40,646 bases of DNA from Clostridia bacterium. Its GTDB lineage: Bacteria > Bacillota > Clostridia > Christensenellales > Pumilibacteraceae. A program made the position numbers and the translations under genes. Location of the stretch: positions 1 through 40,646 of the forward strand of contig JAFQMX010000057.1 of NCBI GenBank assembly GCA_017396125.1, read 5' to 3'. The notes below the pieces were generated by a model, which had not been told where the DNA came from, did no database searches, and saw only the letters and a program-made list of their open reading frames with translations. Positions 6,170 through 15,752 of the stretch are shown here, piece by piece. Numbering within the stretch: position 1 is the stretch's first letter; every line of letters begins with the position of its first letter.

Positions 6170-6207
6170 ATACCTGTGTAAGTGATTTTACGCGGGTATT
6201 TTTTTTT
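6170..6207 (+). terminator. Rho-independent terminator of pgi-pgk
   Basis: ATACC (6170-6174) pairs with GGTAT (6195-6199), and inside it GTGTAA pairs with TTACGC (one G-U pair). The stem runs directly into nine T residues ending at 6207. Confidence 0.82.
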
Positions 6208-6222
6208 GTCTGCCGAACGCGT

Positions 6223-6287
6223 ATCGAAAAATTTTATCGATAAAAGCAATCGATAAAACAAATCGATAAAAATAATCGATTGACAAA
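6223..6287 (+). repeat. Five-unit 13-bp tandem array (ATCGAT iterons) upstream of rex
   Basis: ATCGAT begins at 6236, 6249, 6262 and 6275, with a diverged first unit ATCGAA at 6223, so the spacing is exactly 13 bases throughout. Units 2-4 share ATCGATAAAA followed by three variable bases. Unit 2 lies in a perfect 14-bp palindrome, TTTTATCGATAAAA (6232-6245). The last unit abuts the -35 box of the rex promoter and shares one base with it. The array therefore covers roughly -35 to -90 relative to the start of transcription. The position and internal symmetry suggest binding sites for a regulatory protein, but the protein is unknown, and the motif does not match the Rex operator consensus (TTGTTAA-type arms) that I know. 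Confidence 0.8.
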
Positions 6288-6309
6288 CAGAAGAATTTGG
6301 ATATATAAT
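6280..6309 (+). promoter_or_regulatory. Strong sigma-A type promoter for rex
   Basis: A perfect TTGACA (6280-6285) and a perfect TATAAT (6304-6309) are separated by 18 bases. Transcription should start near 6316, leaving a very short leader before the ATG at 6329, with GAGGGGAGA (6316-6324) as ribosome binding site at or just after the transcript start. The iteron array lies immediately upstream. Confidence 0.8.
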
Positions 6310-6328
6310 AAGCGTGAGGGGAGATTTT

Positions 6329-6979
6329 ATGAACAACGATGACAAAAAGAAGTATATGCCCAAGGCAACTATCTCTAGATTGCCCGTATACAGAATGTAT
6401 CTAAAGAACAAGCGTAGCGAAGGTGCAACGTATGTTTCGTCAGCAACTATTGCCAGCGATTTGGATTTGACTTCGGTGCAGGTGCGCAAGGATTTAGCGT
6501 GGGTAAGCAGTGCGCCTGGCAAACCTAAAATCGGTTTTGTGGTGGATAATCTTATCGCCGATATCGAAGAATATTTTGGATATTCGTACCAAAAAAATGC
6601 GGTGTTGATAGGCGTGGGACATTTGGGTAAGGCTCTTTTGTCGTACAACCGTTTTGAAAAATACGGTCTAAATATCATGGCAGCTTTTGAGCATAACGAG
6701 AGCAAAATTAACACGGTGTTTGCCGAAAAAAACATTTATTCGCTTGCGGATATTTCTGATTTTATCGAAAAAAACGATGTAAGTATCGGAATTATTACCG
6801 TGCCAAAAGCTTCCGCGCAGGAAGTCTGCGACATTTTGGTAAAGTCCGGCATAAAGGCTATTTGGAATTTTGCGCCCGTAATGCTGGAAGTTCCAAAGCA
6901 CGTTGCGGTGCGTAACGAGGATATGGCAGCTTCTCTTGCCAAGCTTTCGATACAAATGCTGTCCATGAACGATAGATAA
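6329..6979 (+). CDS. rex: Redox-sensing transcriptional repressor Rex
   Basis: A 216-residue protein with the Rex architecture. The N-terminal winged helix (about 10-75) includes the recognition segment SVQVRKDLAW. A Rossmann domain carries GVGHLG at 95-100, followed by a domain-swap C-terminal helix. Rex senses the NADH/NAD+ ratio and represses fermentation and respiration genes when NADH is low. The ATG at 6329 is chosen because the GGGGAG site lies four to six bases upstream; an in-frame GTG at 6314 would fall at the expected transcription start and lacks a site. The gene has its own strong promoter and a terminator at 7050, so it appears monocistronic. It follows the pgi-pgk glycolytic unit, which fits a redox role, although co-regulation is only inferred. 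Confidence 0.95.
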   Translation: MNNDDKKKYMPKATISRLPVYRMYLKNKRSEGATYVSSATIASDLDLTSVQVRKDLAWVSSAPGKPKIGFVVDNLIADIEEYFGYSYQKNAVLIGVGHLGKALLSYNRFEKYGLNIMAAFEHNESKINTVFAEKNIYSLADISDFIEKNDVSIGIITVPKASAQEVCDILVKSGIKAIWNFAPVMLEVPKHVAVRNEDMAASLAKLSIQMLSMNDR

Positions 6980-7077: not shown

Positions 7078-7155
7078 GTTTTAGATACAAGCAGTTAATA
7101 CAAAAAATTCCATTGTTCTGCATATATTATACGACTACGTTTTTTGGAGGATAAA

Positions 7156-7845
7156 ATGATAGTCGAAAGCTTTTTGCAGTTTCTCGGAAAAATTTTTTGT
7201 TTTGCTTCTTTCGTCAACAACAAAGGCTCTTTTCCTGACCCATTACCCAGCGAGCAGGAGCGCGAATATATCGAAAGGGTAAAGCAGGGCGACAGAAATG
7301 CAAGAGAAATTCTCATAAAGCACAATTTGCGACTGGTGGCTCACATAGTAAAAAAATATTCAAATGCAGGCGAGGCGGATGATTTGATATCGGTGGGCAG
7401 TATAGGGCTTATTAAGGGAATAGAAAGCTTTGAGTACGGAAAGGGCAGTCAACTTGCTACCTACTGTGCCAAATGTATAGACAATGAAATTTTGATGTAC
7501 ATACGCTCCAACCGTAAGCACAAAAATACGCGTAGCTTGTCCGAGTCGGTGGGCGTGGACAAGGAAGGCAACGAGATTACTCTTATGGATATAATTCCCA
7601 TAAAGGATGATAACCTGGTAATCAAGGTAGAAAATGACGTTTTGTATAACAGGGTGCTGGAGATTATTGAAAAGGTGCTGACGAAACGAGAAAAATTTAT
7701 AATTTGCTATCGTTACGGTATCGGTGTGGAAAAAGCGTACACTCAGTTGGAAATAGCAAAAAAGTTAAAAATTTCCCGTTCTTACGTATCGCGCATTGAA
7801 AAAAAGGCAATATCAAAAATTGCCAAGGAAATAGGCGCAAATTAG
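7156..7845 (+). CDS. sigK: Sporulation sigma factor SigK
   Basis: A 229-residue sigma-70 family protein that closely follows SigK. The hydrophobic N-terminal ~20 residues precede VNNKGSFPDPL and resemble the SigK pro-sequence removed by the SpoIVFB membrane protease. Region 2 contains HNLRLVAHIVKKY and DDLISVGSIGLIKGIESF. The C-terminal helix-turn-helix region contains EIAKKLKISRSYVSRIEKKA. SigK directs late transcription in the mother cell, for coat and cortex genes. The gene is uninterrupted, with no skin-like element. The ATG at 7156 is chosen because GGAGG (7146-7150) lies five bases upstream; the in-frame TTG at 7144 overlaps that site. Upstream, CATATATT (7121-7128) resembles a sigma-E -10 element, but no matching -35 is clear. 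Its presence implies, but does not prove, an endospore-forming organism. Confidence 0.92.
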   Translation: MIVESFLQFLGKIFCFASFVNNKGSFPDPLPSEQEREYIERVKQGDRNAREILIKHNLRLVAHIVKKYSNAGEADDLISVGSIGLIKGIESFEYGKGSQLATYCAKCIDNEILMYIRSNRKHKNTRSLSESVGVDKEGNEITLMDIIPIKDDNLVIKVENDVLYNRVLEIIEKVLTKREKFIICYRYGIGVEKAYTQLEIAKKLKISRSYVSRIEKKAISKIAKEIGAN

Positions 7846-7952: not shown

Positions 7953-8280
7953 CGAGATGACCAGACGGTTGCGTCGATTTCGACGAGGAAAGTCCGAGTA
8001 CCACAGAACAGGATGCCGGCTAATTACCGGTGAAGGCGACTTTAAGGAAAGTGCAACAGAAATAAACCGCCGTTGCTTGCAACGGTAAGGGTGGAAAGGT
8101 GGAGTAAGAGCCCACCGACTTAGCGGCAACGCTTCGTGCCATGTAAACCCCATCCGGTACAAAATTGGAGAGGTAAAGGTTGTTCGCCGTCTCTCCTTGC
8201 ATTGCTTGAGCGATATGGTAACATACCGCCTAGACAGATAACCGTCAAATACAGAACTCGGCTTATAGATCATACTCACC
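7953..8280 (+). ncRNA. rnpB: RNase P RNA (bacterial class A)
   Basis: This is the catalytic RNA of ribonuclease P, which removes 5' leaders from pre-tRNA. Conserved elements appear in order. The 5' segment GATGACCAGACGG is followed by CR-I GAGGAAAGTCC (7985-7995), the central AGGGTGGAAAGGTGG / GTAAGAGCCCACCG region, and GTAAACCCCATCCGG near 8146-8158. The 3' segment CAGATAACCGTC follows, and then CR-V ACAGAACTCGGCTTA (8251-8265). The ends can form helix P1 (GAG with UGA against UCA and CUC). The A-like arrangement of the 3' half favours class A over the Bacillus B type. Ends are estimated from the promoter, the P1 pairing and the terminator at 8284, and may be off by several bases. Confidence 0.95.
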
Positions 8281-8283
8281 ACT

Positions 8284-8313: not shown

Positions 8314-8495
8314 GTCTTTTTGCGTCCTTTAGAAAAAACGCCGATAAAGCGGTGAAATAAAAAATTCGGATAAAAGAAATTATCAAATTATTTAAGTAAG
8401 CGCAGTTTGTTATGAAACGATTTTTTAGACAAAAAATAAGTTTAAAAACTCTGCGATGAGTCGATAATACCCTAAAATTGTATAGTGGGGCATTT

Positions 8496-11400
8496 ATGAA
8501 TTACTTATTGATGATTATCGGAATAACAGCGTTTTTTTTGCTTGCCTTTCGTGTAGCAAGATCGGAGAACGGACCTGATTTTAGACTAAAACCGTTGTTA
8601 TCAGGGAATGCGCTTAAATTGGAAATAAACCGAATTGCAAGTGAGTGCGTGGTTTACGATGTGAGAGGTGCATCACTTAATATTTCGCTCATAAAACGAT
8701 ATTTAACTCGCGCCTATCGAATTATAGGCGCTAAAATTCGCGCAGGCGAGGAAGCCTTTGATTTCGAAAACAGAATTTTTGACGCTTATTACAACTTATG
8801 CACGGCGCTGGCAAGAGTAAAGGAAGCGTCGATTTTTCAGCGTTTACCACACGTGGGCGGAGTGCCACGGGTGTATTTGCTGTGCGAAGCGCTGGTAAAA
8901 GGGCTGGAGAGTAGCGTAGACGAGAGCTCTTTTGCCTCTGCGATAAAACAGTTTAACGATATCGCTCCTCTTTGCTACGAGGAAATTTGCGCCCTTCCTT
9001 TGGCGTTGGACTTTTGTATTTTAGAATATGTAGCGATTTTTGCCTCAAAGTCTGTCAAAATCAATAAGAATATCGATCGTGCGTACCGCGACGTAAAAAA
9101 GAACAAGCTCGATTTGTCTTTGATAAATTACGGTAGCTACGTTTATGGATACTGGCAACACGCAAAGGATGCGCAAAAGAGTGAATTAAAGACATTTTGC
9201 GCCGATAACGGGTTGGATTTGGATGACAGGATCGACAATTTTTTGCTTTTACAGGCGAGATACAGTGGAGCAATGCAGTCTGCAATTAATTTTTTGCTGG
9301 TAAAAGACAGCAAAATCACGGATAAGTTGCTGATAAATCTTGTTCCGTCGTGTCAAATTCTATCCCAAAACACTTCGTTTTATCAAAGTAAGCTGGCTAG
9401 TAAATACGTTATGGCGTATTATTTGGCTAAACGCGCAAAAAAAGAAAAAATTAGCGAGTCTGCGCTTGCGCAAAGAATCAAGGAACGCGCCGAACGAGAA
9501 CAACGCGATATTGCGGAAGAAATTTTACCGCGTCCAAAGGGCAAGGTTTTTATGCGCGTGTATATAGCGTATTTCGTTGTGCTGTCGCTGATATTGAGCG
9601 CTGCAGTGGCGGCTGTTGTGGGTAAACTTTATATTTTGACGGCAGTTATTTTTTTTCCTATATCGCTGGGATTGCTTTTGCGCTTAAACGATACTATAAA
9701 CGGCAAATACAACGATAGACGATATCTTCCAAGAAGAGATTTTCGTTATATTAACAAAGAGCAAAGCCGAACAATGCTAGTTTATACTGCTTTGGTTGGG
9801 GATGAAAAGGAGGTTGAGGGGCTTTTTGAGTCGCTAAAAACTTTGCGCGTTGCCAACCCCGACAAAATTTTCACGTATTCTTTACTTTTGGATTTACCTA
9901 CGGCAAAACGGCTTAATGATAACCGTGACGGAGCAATTTTTACGCGAATAAACGAGGAGTTTAATAAGTTAAAGGAAAACAGATTTAGCGTTTTTGTGCG
10001 AAAGCGAATCAGGACGGGCGAAAACGAGTATAGAGGCTGGGAAAAGAAACGAGGCGCTTTGATAGAGCTAAATAAATTTCTGCTTAGCGGTGATCAAAGT
10101 CCGTTTTTGCTTCGTCTTGGCAAAGTTCCCAGCCTCAAGTACGTGGTGACGCTGGACAGCGATACTGTGATAAATTGCGCAACTGAGCTGGTTGAGATTA
10201 TGGAGCATCCCTACAACGCCGATAAAAATGTAGTTGCGCTTAATATGAAAACTAATCCCAGTACAATTATGACTCCGTTTGCTAGCTTGCTTTGCGGTAG
10301 CGTGGGGCTAAACAATTATTCATCGGCAATGACCAACCCGAATTTTGATATATTCGGCAGTGGAAATTATACGGGTAAGGGAATCTATCGTCTTGCGGAA
10401 TTTGACGGGGCTGTGGCGGGCGCGTTTATGGATAATCGCTTGCTCAGTCACGATTTTATTGAAGGAGCAGTGGCGGGCTGTGCCAACTCGGACGTAAGCG
10501 CTATCGACAACTTTCCGTGTGATTATTCCTCGTTTCTAAAAAGAAAAATTCGCTGGCTTAGGGGAGATTGGCAGCTTATTCCTTATCTATTTTTTAGGAC
10601 CAGAAACCGTAGCGGAGCAAGGGTAAAAAATCCGCTTTCGCCCATCGCTAAATGGCATATTTTGTGCAATATAATTTGTAGCTTGATACCCATATCGACT
10701 ATTGGGCTGGTGCTGATTGCAGTGATTGCGGGCCAGATGAGCTATCTTTTGCCTGCGTTTGCACTCAAAATTTTTGGGCTTTTGAATGCTGTTAGAACTT
10801 CGGTTTTGAGGCGAGGCAGTCTTGCGAAAAGCTTGCTTAGTGAAGCAGTGGAGATAATCACTTTGCCTGTGGATGCGTACAACTCGCTGTGCGCAATCGT
10901 GGTTACTTTGGTAAGACTAGCGAGAAGAAAAAACTTGCTTGCATGGAACGTTTTTGCTCATTCCAGGGGCAAAATCAGCTTTTTGCCTACCTATGCTGTC
11001 GTAGCTTTTATCGTACTCATAAACGTAGTTTTTTGGCAAAATCTGTATTTTTATCTTGTTGCAACACTATTTATGTCAGGCATAGTCTTTGATTTGTGTA
11101 CTTGTCGCTGCTTCAAAATGCAAGAATTTAGCGTGTCTGAGCGAAATGAACTGCAAAATATCGCAAAATGCACTTATGACTACTTTTTGGCTATGAAAGA
11201 GCCTTGTGATAACTTTCAGGTCGGTTTGGGATTTGCAAAACGCACCTCTCCTACCAATCTTGGATTTACGCTCACTTCGCATCTTTGTGCAAAAAAGCTT
11301 GGATTTATTGATGAGAAAACTATGACGGAAAAACTGCGCGAGGAAATTGATTTTATCACAGGGCTCGTCAAGTGGAACGGGTGCTTGTACAACTGGTATT

Positions 11401-14400
11401 CGTCTACGGGAGAAGTGCTTGAACCCAAATATGTTTCGACTGTGGATAACGGAAATCTTGCGGTTTGTTTAATGATGGTAGGAGAAGAAGTCGAGGCGCT
11501 AAAGAGTGAATGCATGGAAATTTTGCGTGGCATGAAACTGGAAAAGCTGTTTGACGGCGAGCGCGGTTTGTTTTTTGTTGGCTACAACGATAGTGCCAAG
11601 CATATGGACTTTGCGCACTACGATTTGCTTGCCAGCGAAAGTCAACTTACCTACCAAGCGGCAATATCGCTCGGTAAGGTTGACAAAGGCTCGTTTGACA
11701 ATCTTTCCAGAAAAAAAGTTCGCTACGTAGGCGATATGCTTTATTCGTGGAACGGCGGTCTATTCGAATACCTGATGGCAAATTTGCTCGTTCCGTATCC
11801 AAAATACACATTACTGTATAGTAGCGCAAAAAATGCGGTTTTTTCTCAAATTAGATACGCAAAGCGGAATCATACTTTTGCTTGGGGTTGGAGTGAGAGT
11901 TTGTATAATTCTACGGACGACGGCGGATGGTATCAGTACAAGCCCTTTGGCTTGGAGCGAATCGCAATAAATTCGCAGGTTTCGACGGGTTCGGTGTCAG
12001 CGTACTCGTCCATTATGGCGCTGGATTTTTCACCAAAAATGGTGTTAAAGAATCTTGAAGTGCTAAAATCCAGGAATATGCTTGGAGAGCTTGGCTTTTT
12101 TGAGTGCTACGACGGCGCACCGCTAAAGAGCAATATGACACATCATCAAGGTATGATTTTGCTAGCGCTTACGAGAGCGCTTGACCGCAAAGCTTTCTCG
12201 TTATTTGACGGCAGTGCTTTTTGTAATGCGTCCAGAATATTGCTTGCGGTGGAGGATGATGGCAAAATTGCTCCGAAAAAAGCAAAAATTCCTTTGGCTA
12301 GAAAATTCGCGGCCGAAAAGAAGGTTTTTTGTTCGCATGTCTATCCGCCACAGTATAATTTTTTGACCAACGGAAAATTTTGTGTAGTCGACGACGCGTG
12401 CGGCAGGGGCTATACCTATTTTAATGGCAAGTATTTAACTCGCCATACCAAAGCAGAGGACGGCGTAAAAATTTATTTGACGGCAGACGGGCAGGATTTG
12501 GGTGAAATTTTTGCCAGCGCAAATTCTGTGTTTTATTCGCACAAAAGTGAATTTGCGTTTGAAAATGCTGATATTAGCGTGCGTTGTGACCATGTGGTTT
12601 TGCCATTTTTCAATGGTGACCTGAGGAGCTTTGTAATAAAAAATAAAAGCAAAAAAAGGCAAAATATTGCCTTAAAGGTCGAAATTGAGCTAAGTATGAC
12701 AGACATAAATAAAGATATTGCGCACAAAACCTTTAGTCAAATGTTTATAAAATCGGAATTTGACACACTAGTTGACGCGCCTATATATTTCCGTACCGAC
12801 GAAAATCCCAAGCTGTATTATTCAGTATTTTTTGATAAATCCGCGTCGTATAGCGGTAATTTTGAGGATGGAGAAAAATTTGGTCAATTGCCTATTCCTA
12901 TGTCAAAATCTGTTTTCTCCATCCAACTCGGCGCGTTTGAAAGCACCGAGTGTAGGTTTTGTACGATTGCTTCGTACGACCTGGATTACCTCAAAAGCAG
13001 CGTTGCTCTAATAAAGTCGCCTGGGTTTGAAAAGCGAATAGAGGGAGCGGTGTACTCTCTCAAAAGACTCAATCCTTCTGTCGCCACCGCCCAAAAAGCG
13101 TCACTAATAATTCACGAGCGGGCTTTTTTGCCAAGCGAGCTTGAGGATTTGTTTAATTTAAATTATCCATTGCTAAGTTTTGTCGTGACGGGTCAAAAGA
13201 GCTTTTCCAGGCTATATTATCAACTGAGCGAACTAAAAAAACTTTTTGCGTTCGGACTAAAATTCAACATCTCTGTAGTGTGCAAAGAGGTGGACGGCTA
13301 TTACAAGTCGGTATCCGAGGGAGTGCGTAACATTTTCGACGCGCTGGGAATTTGTACTCACCAAAACGGCTTGTGTGCGCAAATAATAGACTTTGCGCAT
13401 CCTCTTGCAAAAACTGTAATAAATTTGTCGCTTAATGCCGATTTCGTTTTGCAAAGGCAGGTTAACAATGAATTATGTCACAGCAAGCAAATTTTAGCGT
13501 CTGCAAAAATGCCGGATTTTTTGGTGGATCACAAGACTTTTTGCGGTGGATTTTTGGCTGATGGCGGATTTTTGATAGAAAAAAAGCCACCTCGCCCTTG
13601 GAGCAACGTTTTGTCTAACGGAAAATTTGGGTGCATTATAACCGACAGTGGTGGCGGATACACGTTTATGGAAAATTCGAGAGAGGAAAAAATTACCGTG
13701 TGGAGCAACGATCTTGTCAGCGATGCGCCCTCCGAATCGGTGTTTTTTGAGGACGAGCGAGATTTTTGGGGTGCAACCGCCAATCCTATATCCAAAAACT
13801 GTGACTACAAGACGATTCACTATACGCACAAAACCGATTTTTTGTGTAACTACAACGGGCTTTTGAGCAAGGTAACGGTTTTTATAGACGGAAAAACAAA
13901 GTTTTACAAAATTACGTTGCGCTCGGACGTGGATAGAAGGATTAGGGCGATGCTGACCGCTAATTTCGTAGTGGGCGACAGTTTGCTAAATACCAGAAAC
14001 AGTCTGGAGTTTTCTTACGACGACGGCATAAAGGTTGTAAATCAAAAAAGCGGACTTAGCGCGTATATGCAATCGTCCGAGCCATCAGATTACTCGTTTT
14101 TCCGAGAGGGATACAGTGATATATCGGGCACGCCTGTTACCGCAAGTTTGAAAAAAGAGGGAATTATTCCGTATCCTGCTTTATCAGTGGCGGTAGAGCT
14201 AAAGGCTGGACAAGAAAAGGTTATCTACTTTTCCATAGGACATAAGACGAATTTTGAAGTGGATGAGCCAATGGTAAATTATATCTCTAACGTTAGTATC
14301 GAAACGGGAATAAAGTCTTTGGACTATTTGTGCAAATGGCTTCCGCATCAAATTCTTAGCAGTAGGTTTTACGCTAGGGCAGGATATTATCAAGCGGGTG

Positions 14401-15752
14401 GAGCAATAGGTTTTCGCGATCAGCTCCAGGACGCGCTTGCATTGTTGTATGTGGACCCAAAGCTGGTCCGAAAGCATATTTTGACCTGTGCGGCACATCA
14501 GTTCGAAAAAGGGGACGTTCAGCATTGGTGGCATTACGATTGCACGGGAGTACGCACGACGATAATGGACGATAGACTGTATCTTCCGCTCGCCGTTGCT
14601 GAGTATATAAGTTTTACGCAGGACAAGGATATTTTGCTAGAGTCAACTCCGTATCTCAATGACGTAGTGATACCACGAAATTGCTCTGACGTATATGCAA
14701 CACCGGGGTTCAGTACCAAGCGTGCGACGGTGTACGAGCACTGTATAAAAGCAATAATTTCGGTGTTGGTGTTTGGTGAAAACGGCTTGCTTCTTAGGCG
14801 CGGTGGAGATTGGAACGACGGTATGAACAGGGTAGGGCAAAACGGAGTGGGAACTACCGTGTGGGGAAGTATGTTTGCCTTTTGGGTAATAGATAAATTT
14901 TTGCCGTACTGTACCGAGGAGGACAAAAGGATTCTTATGCACGCCAAGTCGGATTTGCGTGAAAGCGTAAACTCGGCGTTTAATGGAAGTTGGTTTTTGC
15001 GCGCATATACGGATGACGGAACAAAGCTTGGAGATATGGACAGCAAGGAGTGCAAAATCGATTTGATTACGCAGGCATTTTCCGCCATTTCAGCCATAAC
15101 TTCCACGCAAAATTCCAAGGTCGCTCTCGAAAATGCGTATAAACTTTTGGTGGATAAAGAGGGTGGAATTATAAAGCTTCTCGACCCGCCGTTCCAAGAA
15201 ATTGACGCAGGATACATCAGCTTGTACCCTAAGGGCGTAAGAGAAAACGGTGGACAATATACTCACGGTGCAGTTTGGTATATATGGTCGCTTTTTGAGC
15301 GGGAAATGTATGATGCTGCATTTGAACTTTTACAGATGATTAACCCAGCCGAAAAATGCAAAGACGGCGGAGACGGAGAGCGGTACAAAGGCGAGCCGTA
15401 CGTTATTGCGGCGGACGTATATGCCGGTAGCAATATCGGACAAGCAGGATGGACATGGTACACGGGCTCGGCATCGTGGTATTATCGCTGTATAATCGAG
15501 CAGCTTCTCGGTATCAAAATCAGGGGTGAAACGTTGAGCATATCTCCACATCTTCCAAGCGCGTTTGTGTCAAAAATCAAAGTAAATTATCGCACTAAAT
15601 ACGGAGTTCAACGCATAGAAATCGACAACAGCGGAAGCGGTGAATTTGAGCTGTGGGTGGGAAGAATACGTTATTCCACCCCGTCGGTTAAACTCTCCGC
15701 AGAGTCGGTAAAAAGTGTAGTGAGCGTCAAACGAAAATCACGCGCGACATAA
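8496..15752 (+). CDS. Very large cyclic beta-1,2-glucan synthase-like protein (GT84 plus GH94 modules)
   Basis: A 2418-residue membrane protein with the module order of NdvB/ChvB/Cgs, which are usually ~2800 residues. It has an N-terminal membrane segment (about 3-20), a soluble region, and a paired membrane hairpin near 355-395. A GT-A type glycosyltransferase follows with DSD at 554-556, SHDFIEG around 651-657 and RWLRGDWQ at 686-693. More membrane segments lie at about 725-770 and 830-870. Next is a glycoamylase-like domain beginning near TSPTN (917-921). Two beta-sandwich repeats each contain an LTNGKF/LSNGKF element, and a GH94 phosphorylase-like catalytic domain contains GGDWNDGMN at 2103-2111. 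In characterised members the transferase polymerises UDP-glucose and the GH94 part sets chain length. The ATG at 8496 is chosen over TTG 8478, though the upstream site (AGTGGGG) is poor. The interval 8314-8495 holds only a weak possible promoter (TTTAAA 8441-8446, GATAAT 8463-8468). The actual product is not known. Confidence 0.85.
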   Translation: MNYLLMIIGITAFFLLAFRVARSENGPDFRLKPLLSGNALKLEINRIASECVVYDVRGASLNISLIKRYLTRAYRIIGAKIRAGEEAFDFENRIFDAYYNLCTALARVKEASIFQRLPHVGGVPRVYLLCEALVKGLESSVDESSFASAIKQFNDIAPLCYEEICALPLALDFCILEYVAIFASKSVKINKNIDRAYRDVKKNKLDLSLINYGSYVYGYWQHAKDAQKSELKTFCADNGLDLDDRIDNFLLLQARYSGAMQSAINFLLVKDSKITDKLLINLVPSCQILSQNTSFYQSKLASKYVMAYYLAKRAKKEKISESALAQRIKERAEREQRDIAEEILPRPKGKVFMRVYIAYFVVLSLILSAAVAAVVGKLYILTAVIFFPISLGLLLRLNDTINGKYNDRRYLPRRDFRYINKEQSRTMLVYTALVGDEKEVEGLFESLKTLRVANPDKIFTYSLLLDLPTAKRLNDNRDGAIFTRINEEFNKLKENRFSVFVRKRIRTGENEYRGWEKKRGALIELNKFLLSGDQSPFLLRLGKVPSLKYVVTLDSDTVINCATELVEIMEHPYNADKNVVALNMKTNPSTIMTPFASLLCGSVGLNNYSSAMTNPNFDIFGSGNYTGKGIYRLAEFDGAVAGAFMDNRLLSHDFIEGAVAGCANSDVSAIDNFPCDYSSFLKRKIRWLRGDWQLIPYLFFRTRNRSGARVKNPLSPIAKWHILCNIICSLIPISTIGLVLIAVIAGQMSYLLPAFALKIFGLLNAVRTSVLRRGSLAKSLLSEAVEIITLPVDAYNSLCAIVVTLVRLARRKNLLAWNVFAHSRGKISFLPTYAVVAFIVLINVVFWQNLYFYLVATLFMSGIVFDLCTCRCFKMQEFSVSERNELQNIAKCTYDYFLAMKEPCDNFQVGLGFAKRTSPTNLGFTLTSHLCAKKLGFIDEKTMTEKLREEIDFITGLVKWNGCLYNWYSSTGEVLEPKYVSTVDNGNLAVCLMMVGEEVEALKSECMEILRGMKLEKLFDGERGLFFVGYNDSAKHMDFAHYDLLASESQLTYQAAISLGKVDKGSFDNLSRKKVRYVGDMLYSWNGGLFEYLMANLLVPYPKYTLLYSSAKNAVFSQIRYAKRNHTFAWGWSESLYNSTDDGGWYQYKPFGLERIAINSQVSTGSVSAYSSIMALDFSPKMVLKNLEVLKSRNMLGELGFFECYDGAPLKSNMTHHQGMILLALTRALDRKAFSLFDGSAFCNASRILLAVEDDGKIAPKKAKIPLARKFAAEKKVFCSHVYPPQYNFLTNGKFCVVDDACGRGYTYFNGKYLTRHTKAEDGVKIYLTADGQDLGEIFASANSVFYSHKSEFAFENADISVRCDHVVLPFFNGDLRSFVIKNKSKKRQNIALKVEIELSMTDINKDIAHKTFSQMFIKSEFDTLVDAPIYFRTDENPKLYYSVFFDKSASYSGNFEDGEKFGQLPIPMSKSVFSIQLGAFESTECRFCTIASYDLDYLKSSVALIKSPGFEKRIEGAVYSLKRLNPSVATAQKASLIIHERAFLPSELEDLFNLNYPLLSFVVTGQKSFSRLYYQLSELKKLFAFGLKFNISVVCKEVDGYYKSVSEGVRNIFDALGICTHQNGLCAQIIDFAHPLAKTVINLSLNADFVLQRQVNNELCHSKQILASAKMPDFLVDHKTFCGGFLADGGFLIEKKPPRPWSNVLSNGKFGCIITDSGGGYTFMENSREEKITVWSNDLVSDAPSESVFFEDERDFWGATANPISKNCDYKTIHYTHKTDFLCNYNGLLSKVTVFIDGKTKFYKITLRSDVDRRIRAMLTANFVVGDSLLNTRNSLEFSYDDGIKVVNQKSGLSAYMQSSEPSDYSFFREGYSDISGTPVTASLKKEGIIPYPALSVAVELKAGQEKVIYFSIGHKTNFEVDEPMVNYISNVSIETGIKSLDYLCKWLPHQILSSRFYARAGYYQAGGAIGFRDQLQDALALLYVDPKLVRKHILTCAAHQFEKGDVQHWWHYDCTGVRTTIMDDRLYLPLAVAEYISFTQDKDILLESTPYLNDVVIPRNCSDVYATPGFSTKRATVYEHCIKAIISVLVFGENGLLLRRGGDWNDGMNRVGQNGVGTTVWGSMFAFWVIDKFLPYCTEEDKRILMHAKSDLRESVNSAFNGSWFLRAYTDDGTKLGDMDSKECKIDLITQAFSAISAITSTQNSKVALENAYKLLVDKEGGIIKLLDPPFQEIDAGYISLYPKGVRENGGQYTHGAVWYIWSLFEREMYDAAFELLQMINPAEKCKDGGDGERYKGEPYVIAADVYAGSNIGQAGWTWYTGSASWYYRCIIEQLLGIKIRGETLSISPHLPSAFVSKIKVNYRTKYGVQRIEIDNSGSGEFELWVGRIRYSTPSVKLSAESVKSVVSVKRKSRAT

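Follow-up and report, generated by a model that had tools for sequence, protein, structure and literature searches.

A 13-bp-spaced array of ATCGAT repeats upstream of rex is a probable multi-half-site operator of a Rex clade with an altered wing

The stretch of DNA analysed here (40,646 nucleotides in all; hereafter the window) carries five ATCGAT-type repeats directly upstream of a rex gene, which raises the question of what such an array does and which protein would read it. A sequence-only reading had described the layout, and direct reading of the window agrees with it throughout: there are four copies of ATCGAT and one diverged ATCGAA, all steps between successive repeats are 13 bp, one repeat lies within a perfect 14-bp palindrome (TTTTATCGATAAAA, 6232-6245), and the last has one base in common with the consensus -35 box TTGACA. 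The most operator-like inverted pair of the array is formed by half-sites 1 and 2, TATCGAAAAATTTTATCGATA (6222-6242). A terminator-like hairpin closes the preceding pgk gene, and rex would therefore be a separate transcription unit; its start is more likely the ATG at 6329, with AGGGGAG at 6317-6323, than the GTG at 6314. A regulatory role for the array is supported by its position among the following features, the gene being assigned by PF06971, PF02629, NCBIfam, PDB and tree and the others by reading of the sequence.

6170..6208, + strand: terminator-like hairpin and T run at the end of pgk
6223..6228, + strand: half-site 1, ATCGAA (diverged)
6236..6241, + strand: half-site 2, ATCGAT, within the 14-bp palindrome
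6249..6254, + strand: half-site 3, ATCGAT
6262..6267, + strand: half-site 4, ATCGAT
6275..6280, + strand: half-site 5, ATCGAT, overlapping the -35 box by one base
6280..6285, + strand: -35 box of the rex promoter, TTGACA
6304..6309, + strand: -10 box, TATAAT, at 18-bp spacing from the -35 box
6317..6323, + strand: ribosome-binding site, AGGGGAG
6329..6979, + strand: rex, encoding an NAD(H)-responsive repressor of the Pro-Lys wing clade (VRKDLAWVSSAPGKPKIGF)

Chance had been judged a poor explanation for the array, and the counts bear this out: with up to one mismatch, ATCGAT-N7-ATCGAT has 4 matches in the window where 0.11 are expected, and none of 100 shuffles reaches 4. ATCGAT alone is not enriched (13 occurrences in the window, 11.0 expected), so the peculiarity of the array is its spacing. 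The suggested genome search for tandem ATCGAT at 13 bp found the triple only at the rex array in the whole 1.11-Mb assembly, with no match to a reversed control pattern. Across 831 upstream regions, moreover, this is the only intergenic region in which any hexamer occurs four times at one period, and a five-member ATCGAT chain of any period from 7 to 40 is found nowhere else in the genome. We rejected a genome-wide excess of 13-bp pairs (42 against 15 in the control) as a signal, since similar excesses occur at other spacings inside genes and the effect is thus largely one of coding sequence; among these pairs the rex array alone is both intergenic and exact. The genome contains four other TTATCGATAA sites, apparently inside genes.

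Plasmid-replication iterons were likewise considered and rejected: the context is chromosome-like (pgk, rex, a sigma factor and RNase P RNA), and no rep gene was noticed. The bacterial RNase P RNA (class A) lies at 7953-8282, just 3' of the sigma-70 family gene at 7144-7845. Farther along, 8478-15752 is a single ORF of 2424 aa, which we take to resemble a giant cyclic beta-glucan synthase or glycosyl hydrolase.

The product of the downstream gene is a Rex by Pfam and NCBIfam, with a PF06971 winged-helix N-terminal domain and a PF02629 Rossmann NAD(H) domain; it scores 260 bits against the NCBIfam Rex model NF003994 (cut-off 130) and matches the PDB Rex 2vt2 with an E-value of 3e-36. It keeps Arg48, Lys49, Gly58 and Gly63, and Pro-Lys replaces Arg60-Gly61 of the wing. 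To place this change, we assembled 133 rex genes with their upstream DNA; most came from the family and from 396 order genomes, and four from named records. They split into 27 canonical genes, with the wing FGGFGQQGYGY, and 106 with the wing G-K/R-P-K/R-x-G-F/Y, among which the window gene falls. In the tree, a branch with 100/100 support has the Pro-Lys-wing class on one side and the canonical genes with all five PDB Rex proteins on the other. Pro occupies position 60 in 104 of the 106, and Lys or Arg position 61 in 102, while Gly61 is present in all 27 canonical rows and in the five PDB proteins, canonical Rex having Arg, Lys or Gln before this Gly; at position 48, 85 rows of the class have Arg and 21 have Lys, and position 49 is always Lys. 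Some genomes carry the Pro-Lys-wing Rex as a second copy beside a canonical Rex.

We then compared the window promoter with rex promoters of the family and subsequently of the order. Nearly all family rex promoters have ATCGATA-type inverted repeats (for example ATCGATAATAATTTATCGAT), often at or just after the -10 box or ending on the -35 box. Allowing up to two mismatches, TCGATA-N6-TATCGA is found in 77 of the 106 Pro-Lys-wing rex promoters (42 of them exact), in none of the 27 promoters of canonical rex genes, and in 34 of 1060 shuffled sequences (about 3%); when spacings of 8-20 were tried on the Pro-Lys-wing promoters, 14 alone stood out. Among the 29 clade promoters without the 14-bp site, some have 15-bp arrays, and for others the stretch taken as upstream DNA falls within a gene. 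Outside the order, the same 14-bp site recurs in 13 of the 27 class members examined. Within the family, the exact 20-bp palindrome ATCGATA-N6-TATCGAT was found in 11 of the 26 genomes where rex was detected and in none of the 48 where it was not (one-sided Fisher test, about 2e-6, calculated by hand with kinship ignored). Ten of its 12 occurrences are at rex promoters; of the remaining two, one precedes a pyrophosphatase gene and one a short-chain dehydrogenase gene. On these sequence comparisons, the motif is linked to the Rex clade whose wing is altered.

The canonical Rex operator is TTGTGAA-W4-TTCACAA in S. aureus and TTGTTAA-N4-TTAACAA in Clostridia. The latter consensus is quoted in PMC8457756, and TCGATAA-N4-TTATCGA has the same 18-bp layout (7-4-7), with two bases changed per half relative to TTGTTAA. 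Neither TTGTTAA-N4-TTAACAA nor TTGTGAA-N4-TTCACAA was seen on reading the window rex promoter, which upholds the view that the array differs from the known Rex operator; in the Pro-Lys-wing promoters as a group (class A), the canonical words are no commoner than in shuffled sequence. In the T. maritima Rex complex, the G of the half-site is read by Arg48, and in the minor groove the two outer thymines are touched by the wing residues Arg60 and Gly61 (PMC8836258). The changed half-site keeps this G, and its second T has become C (TT to TC) where Arg60 and Gly61 of the T. maritima protein make contact. That wing and half-site have changed in one clade provides the best molecular argument that Rex would read the motif.

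Tandem arrays, too, go with the Pro-Lys wing. Chains of 3-4 half-sites at 14 bp are found in 18 of the 106 Pro-Lys-wing rex promoters and chains of three at 15 bp in 7, compared with 0 of 27 canonical promoters; outside the order, eight promoters have 14-bp chains of 3-4 and one has a 15-bp chain of three. Of the 396 order genomes, 11 have an exact ATCGAT triple, in most cases at rex, and the reversed control pattern has no match. One such array, in a genome where no rex was found (G398), lies 35 bases from a contig end, and comparison with its genus leads us to expect rex beyond it. A 13-bp period is peculiar to the window among the 133 members of the class (the 106 and the 27 outside the order), and the best 14-bp TCGATA/TATCGA match in its promoter has 5 mismatches, so it does not count as a 14-bp site; what the window has in common with the others is a set of half-sites at one constant period upstream of a Pro-Lys-wing rex. 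Comparison of the upstream region among relatives, proposed in the earlier reading as a check and made here with genomes of other genera, thus has a divided outcome: the kind of array is conserved, and the period, 14 or 15 bp elsewhere, is not. The window Rex may be adapted to a 3-bp gap, or the array may be used differently.

A 15-bp period is used by a rex clade of one genus (L253, L256, L259, L260, L262, L263 and L270; for example ATCGACACGCGAAGTAACGATACAAAGCGTATCGAT), in which the array stands directly after the -10 box and recognition position 48 is Lys, not Arg. We considered and rejected the idea that the period is tied to Lys48 in the recognition helix: 15-bp arrays mostly go with Lys48, yet some Lys48 proteins use 14 bp.

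Array and gene are also missing together. In G026 and G027, two genomes of the sister genus g3 that are close to the window genome in gdhA and pgk identity, the sigma-factor gene comes straight after pgk and is followed by a region matching the RNase P position; both rex and the array are missing from this locus in an otherwise identical gene order.

Beyond rex itself, sites of this kind precede the gene of an iron-containing alcohol dehydrogenase, which is typical of Rex targets, in seven genomes from three families: single or tandem sites stand before the same gene in G031, G049, G050, G051 and G054, and G176 and G387 have exact triples there. In G176 (L273 1321-3290), a triple ATCGAT array at 14 bp is followed by adh and then directly by a Pro-Lys-wing rex, in an apparent operon. 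Control of an iron-containing alcohol dehydrogenase by Rex is known from T. saccharolyticum (PMC5886521). G176 has three rex genes in all. The adh site is kept in G051 (L110 2455-2474), where no rex was found; this assembly is 94% complete, and an assembly gap or a recent loss could be responsible. TCGATA palindromes also lie directly after the -10 box of an inorganic pyrophosphatase gene in G058 (L105 3917-3936) and G060 (L106 1982-2001), which would be an unexpected Rex-type target.

Within the window genome, a half-site matrix built from the relatives' rex promoters and applied with a 3-bp gap ranks half-sites 1 and 2 first in the genome by a wide margin, with a score of 22.8, whereas shuffled promoters reach 13.7 at most; no convincing 13-bp site was found at the other promoters of this genome. 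A regulon drawn from weak 14-bp Rex-like sites in the same genome was rejected, their scores being no higher than those of shuffled promoters. These weak candidates include the following, the one before gdhA being absent in relatives.

C49:15548: weak 14-bp candidate before glutamate dehydrogenase (gdhA)
C20:50279: weak 14-bp candidate before formate-tetrahydrofolate ligase (fhs)
C31:28400: weak 14-bp candidate before a DRTGG/iron-hydrogenase-type operon

Taken as a whole, the array is very probably a multi-half-site operator of the Rex encoded directly downstream, through which Rex would regulate its own gene. The sequence-only reading had offered two alternatives, autoregulation by Rex through a different site or control by another factor, and the former is the better supported, as the motif follows the Rex class. 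Its proposal of a small dimer on each ATCGAT separately fared less well, the unit in the relatives being an inward-facing pair of TCGATAA with a 4-bp gap; this paired layout is that of a Rex dimer site, making ATCGAT a half-site that can be shared. The half-site read by the Pro-Lys-wing Rex would then be TCGATAA, in place of TTGTTAA or TTGTGAA. Since ATCGAT, the core, is itself palindromic, a single copy can complete one operator on its right side and begin the next on its left, and an array of five would provide as many as four overlapping operators. NAD+-bound Rex dimers would occupy pairs of neighbouring half-sites, and Rex at 6275-6280, touching the -35 box, would block sigma and keep rex expression low; from established Rex biology, a rise in NADH would be expected to release Rex and raise rex expression. 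Half-site sharing and cooperative loading by Rex are possible. The fuller proposal, that Pro-Lys-wing Rex assembles cooperatively along shared half-sites and not as isolated dimers, with a period that co-evolves by lineage and an NADH response made graded or switch-like by the number of half-sites, strikes us as rather unlikely.

Other explanations of the array have to be set against autoregulation by Rex. The self-palindromic form of ATCGAT, together with a period of 13 bp where the relatives have a 14-bp Rex layout, would suit another dimeric regulator that binds each ATCGAT and has rex among its targets. We nevertheless consider such a regulator improbable: the exact palindrome is absent from the 48 family genomes without a detected rex and from canonical rex genes, array and rex are jointly missing in G026 and G027, the Rex residues facing the changed half-site positions are altered in the same clade, and the targets fit Rex. 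The array could alternatively be a young 13-bp tandem duplication, produced by slippage, seeded by one Rex half-site and of little or no added function. Three consecutive units do have ATCGATAAAA..A in common, Tandem Repeats Finder reports a single array of 3.5 copies with 87% match, and the period differs from that of every relative. Each of these units, however, has its own pair of variable bases (GC, CA, AT) while retaining ATCGATAAAA, a pattern more like selection than recent copying, and in other families rex and adh promoters have parallel arrays of 3-4 half-sites whose spacers differ in sequence. This makes a mere duplication very improbable as an account of the array, although an origin by duplication would not exclude use by Rex.

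Least probable of all is that the array activates rex from upstream of the -35 box by contact with RNA polymerase, through Rex or another protein. Rex is an established repressor, and a role for it as an activator has been proposed but not demonstrated (PMC8457756). Four of the five half-sites lie upstream of the -35 box, and the sites in genus g8 likewise end on it. On the other hand, both hexamers of the rex promoter, -35 and -10, match the consensus, so that an activator would hardly be needed, and many relatives have their sites at or just 3' of the -10 box, a position that suits repression; the earlier suggestion of activator binding is accordingly not borne out.

If the array is indeed an operator of its downstream Rex, a Pro-Lys-wing Rex clade present in many genomes of the class would be tied to an operator word of its own, and a search based on the textbook motif would overlook the regulons of the clade. 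The matched changes, from Arg/Gln-Gly to Pro-Lys in the wing and from TT to TC in the half-site, offer a clean test case for a change of repressor specificity, and tandem half-sites with a lineage-specific period provide a simple system for asking whether Rex binds cooperatively. Autoregulation by Rex is already known. In the open literature searched we found no description of TCGATAA as a Rex word, of its arrangement in tandem or of the Pro-Lys wing class, although an earlier description by Ravcheev et al. 2012, the main comparative study of Rex motifs, is possible.

The predicted system resembles canonical Rex autoregulation in having rex directly downstream of the sites, in the inverted 7-bp half-sites with a 4-bp gap found in the window's relatives, and in its targets, which include rex itself and alcohol dehydrogenase. 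It differs from the canonical operator in the half-site TCGATAA, with its internally palindromic core, in the repetition of half-sites at one period, and, in the window, in a 3-bp gap and five half-sites. The Rex-NAD+-DNA complex of T. maritima (PMC8836258) represents the same family by sequence, with the Arg48/Lys49 recognition helix in common, but its protein has the wing Arg60-Gly61 and the half-site TTGAGAA, whereas the wing of the window protein is Pro-Lys. C. thermocellum, for which a motif has been reported for Rex_2471, has a second paralogue, Rex_1799 (Cthe_0422), with 34-36% identity to canonical Rex (PMC8457756); like the window clade in its own order, this paralogue is a divergent clostridial Rex.
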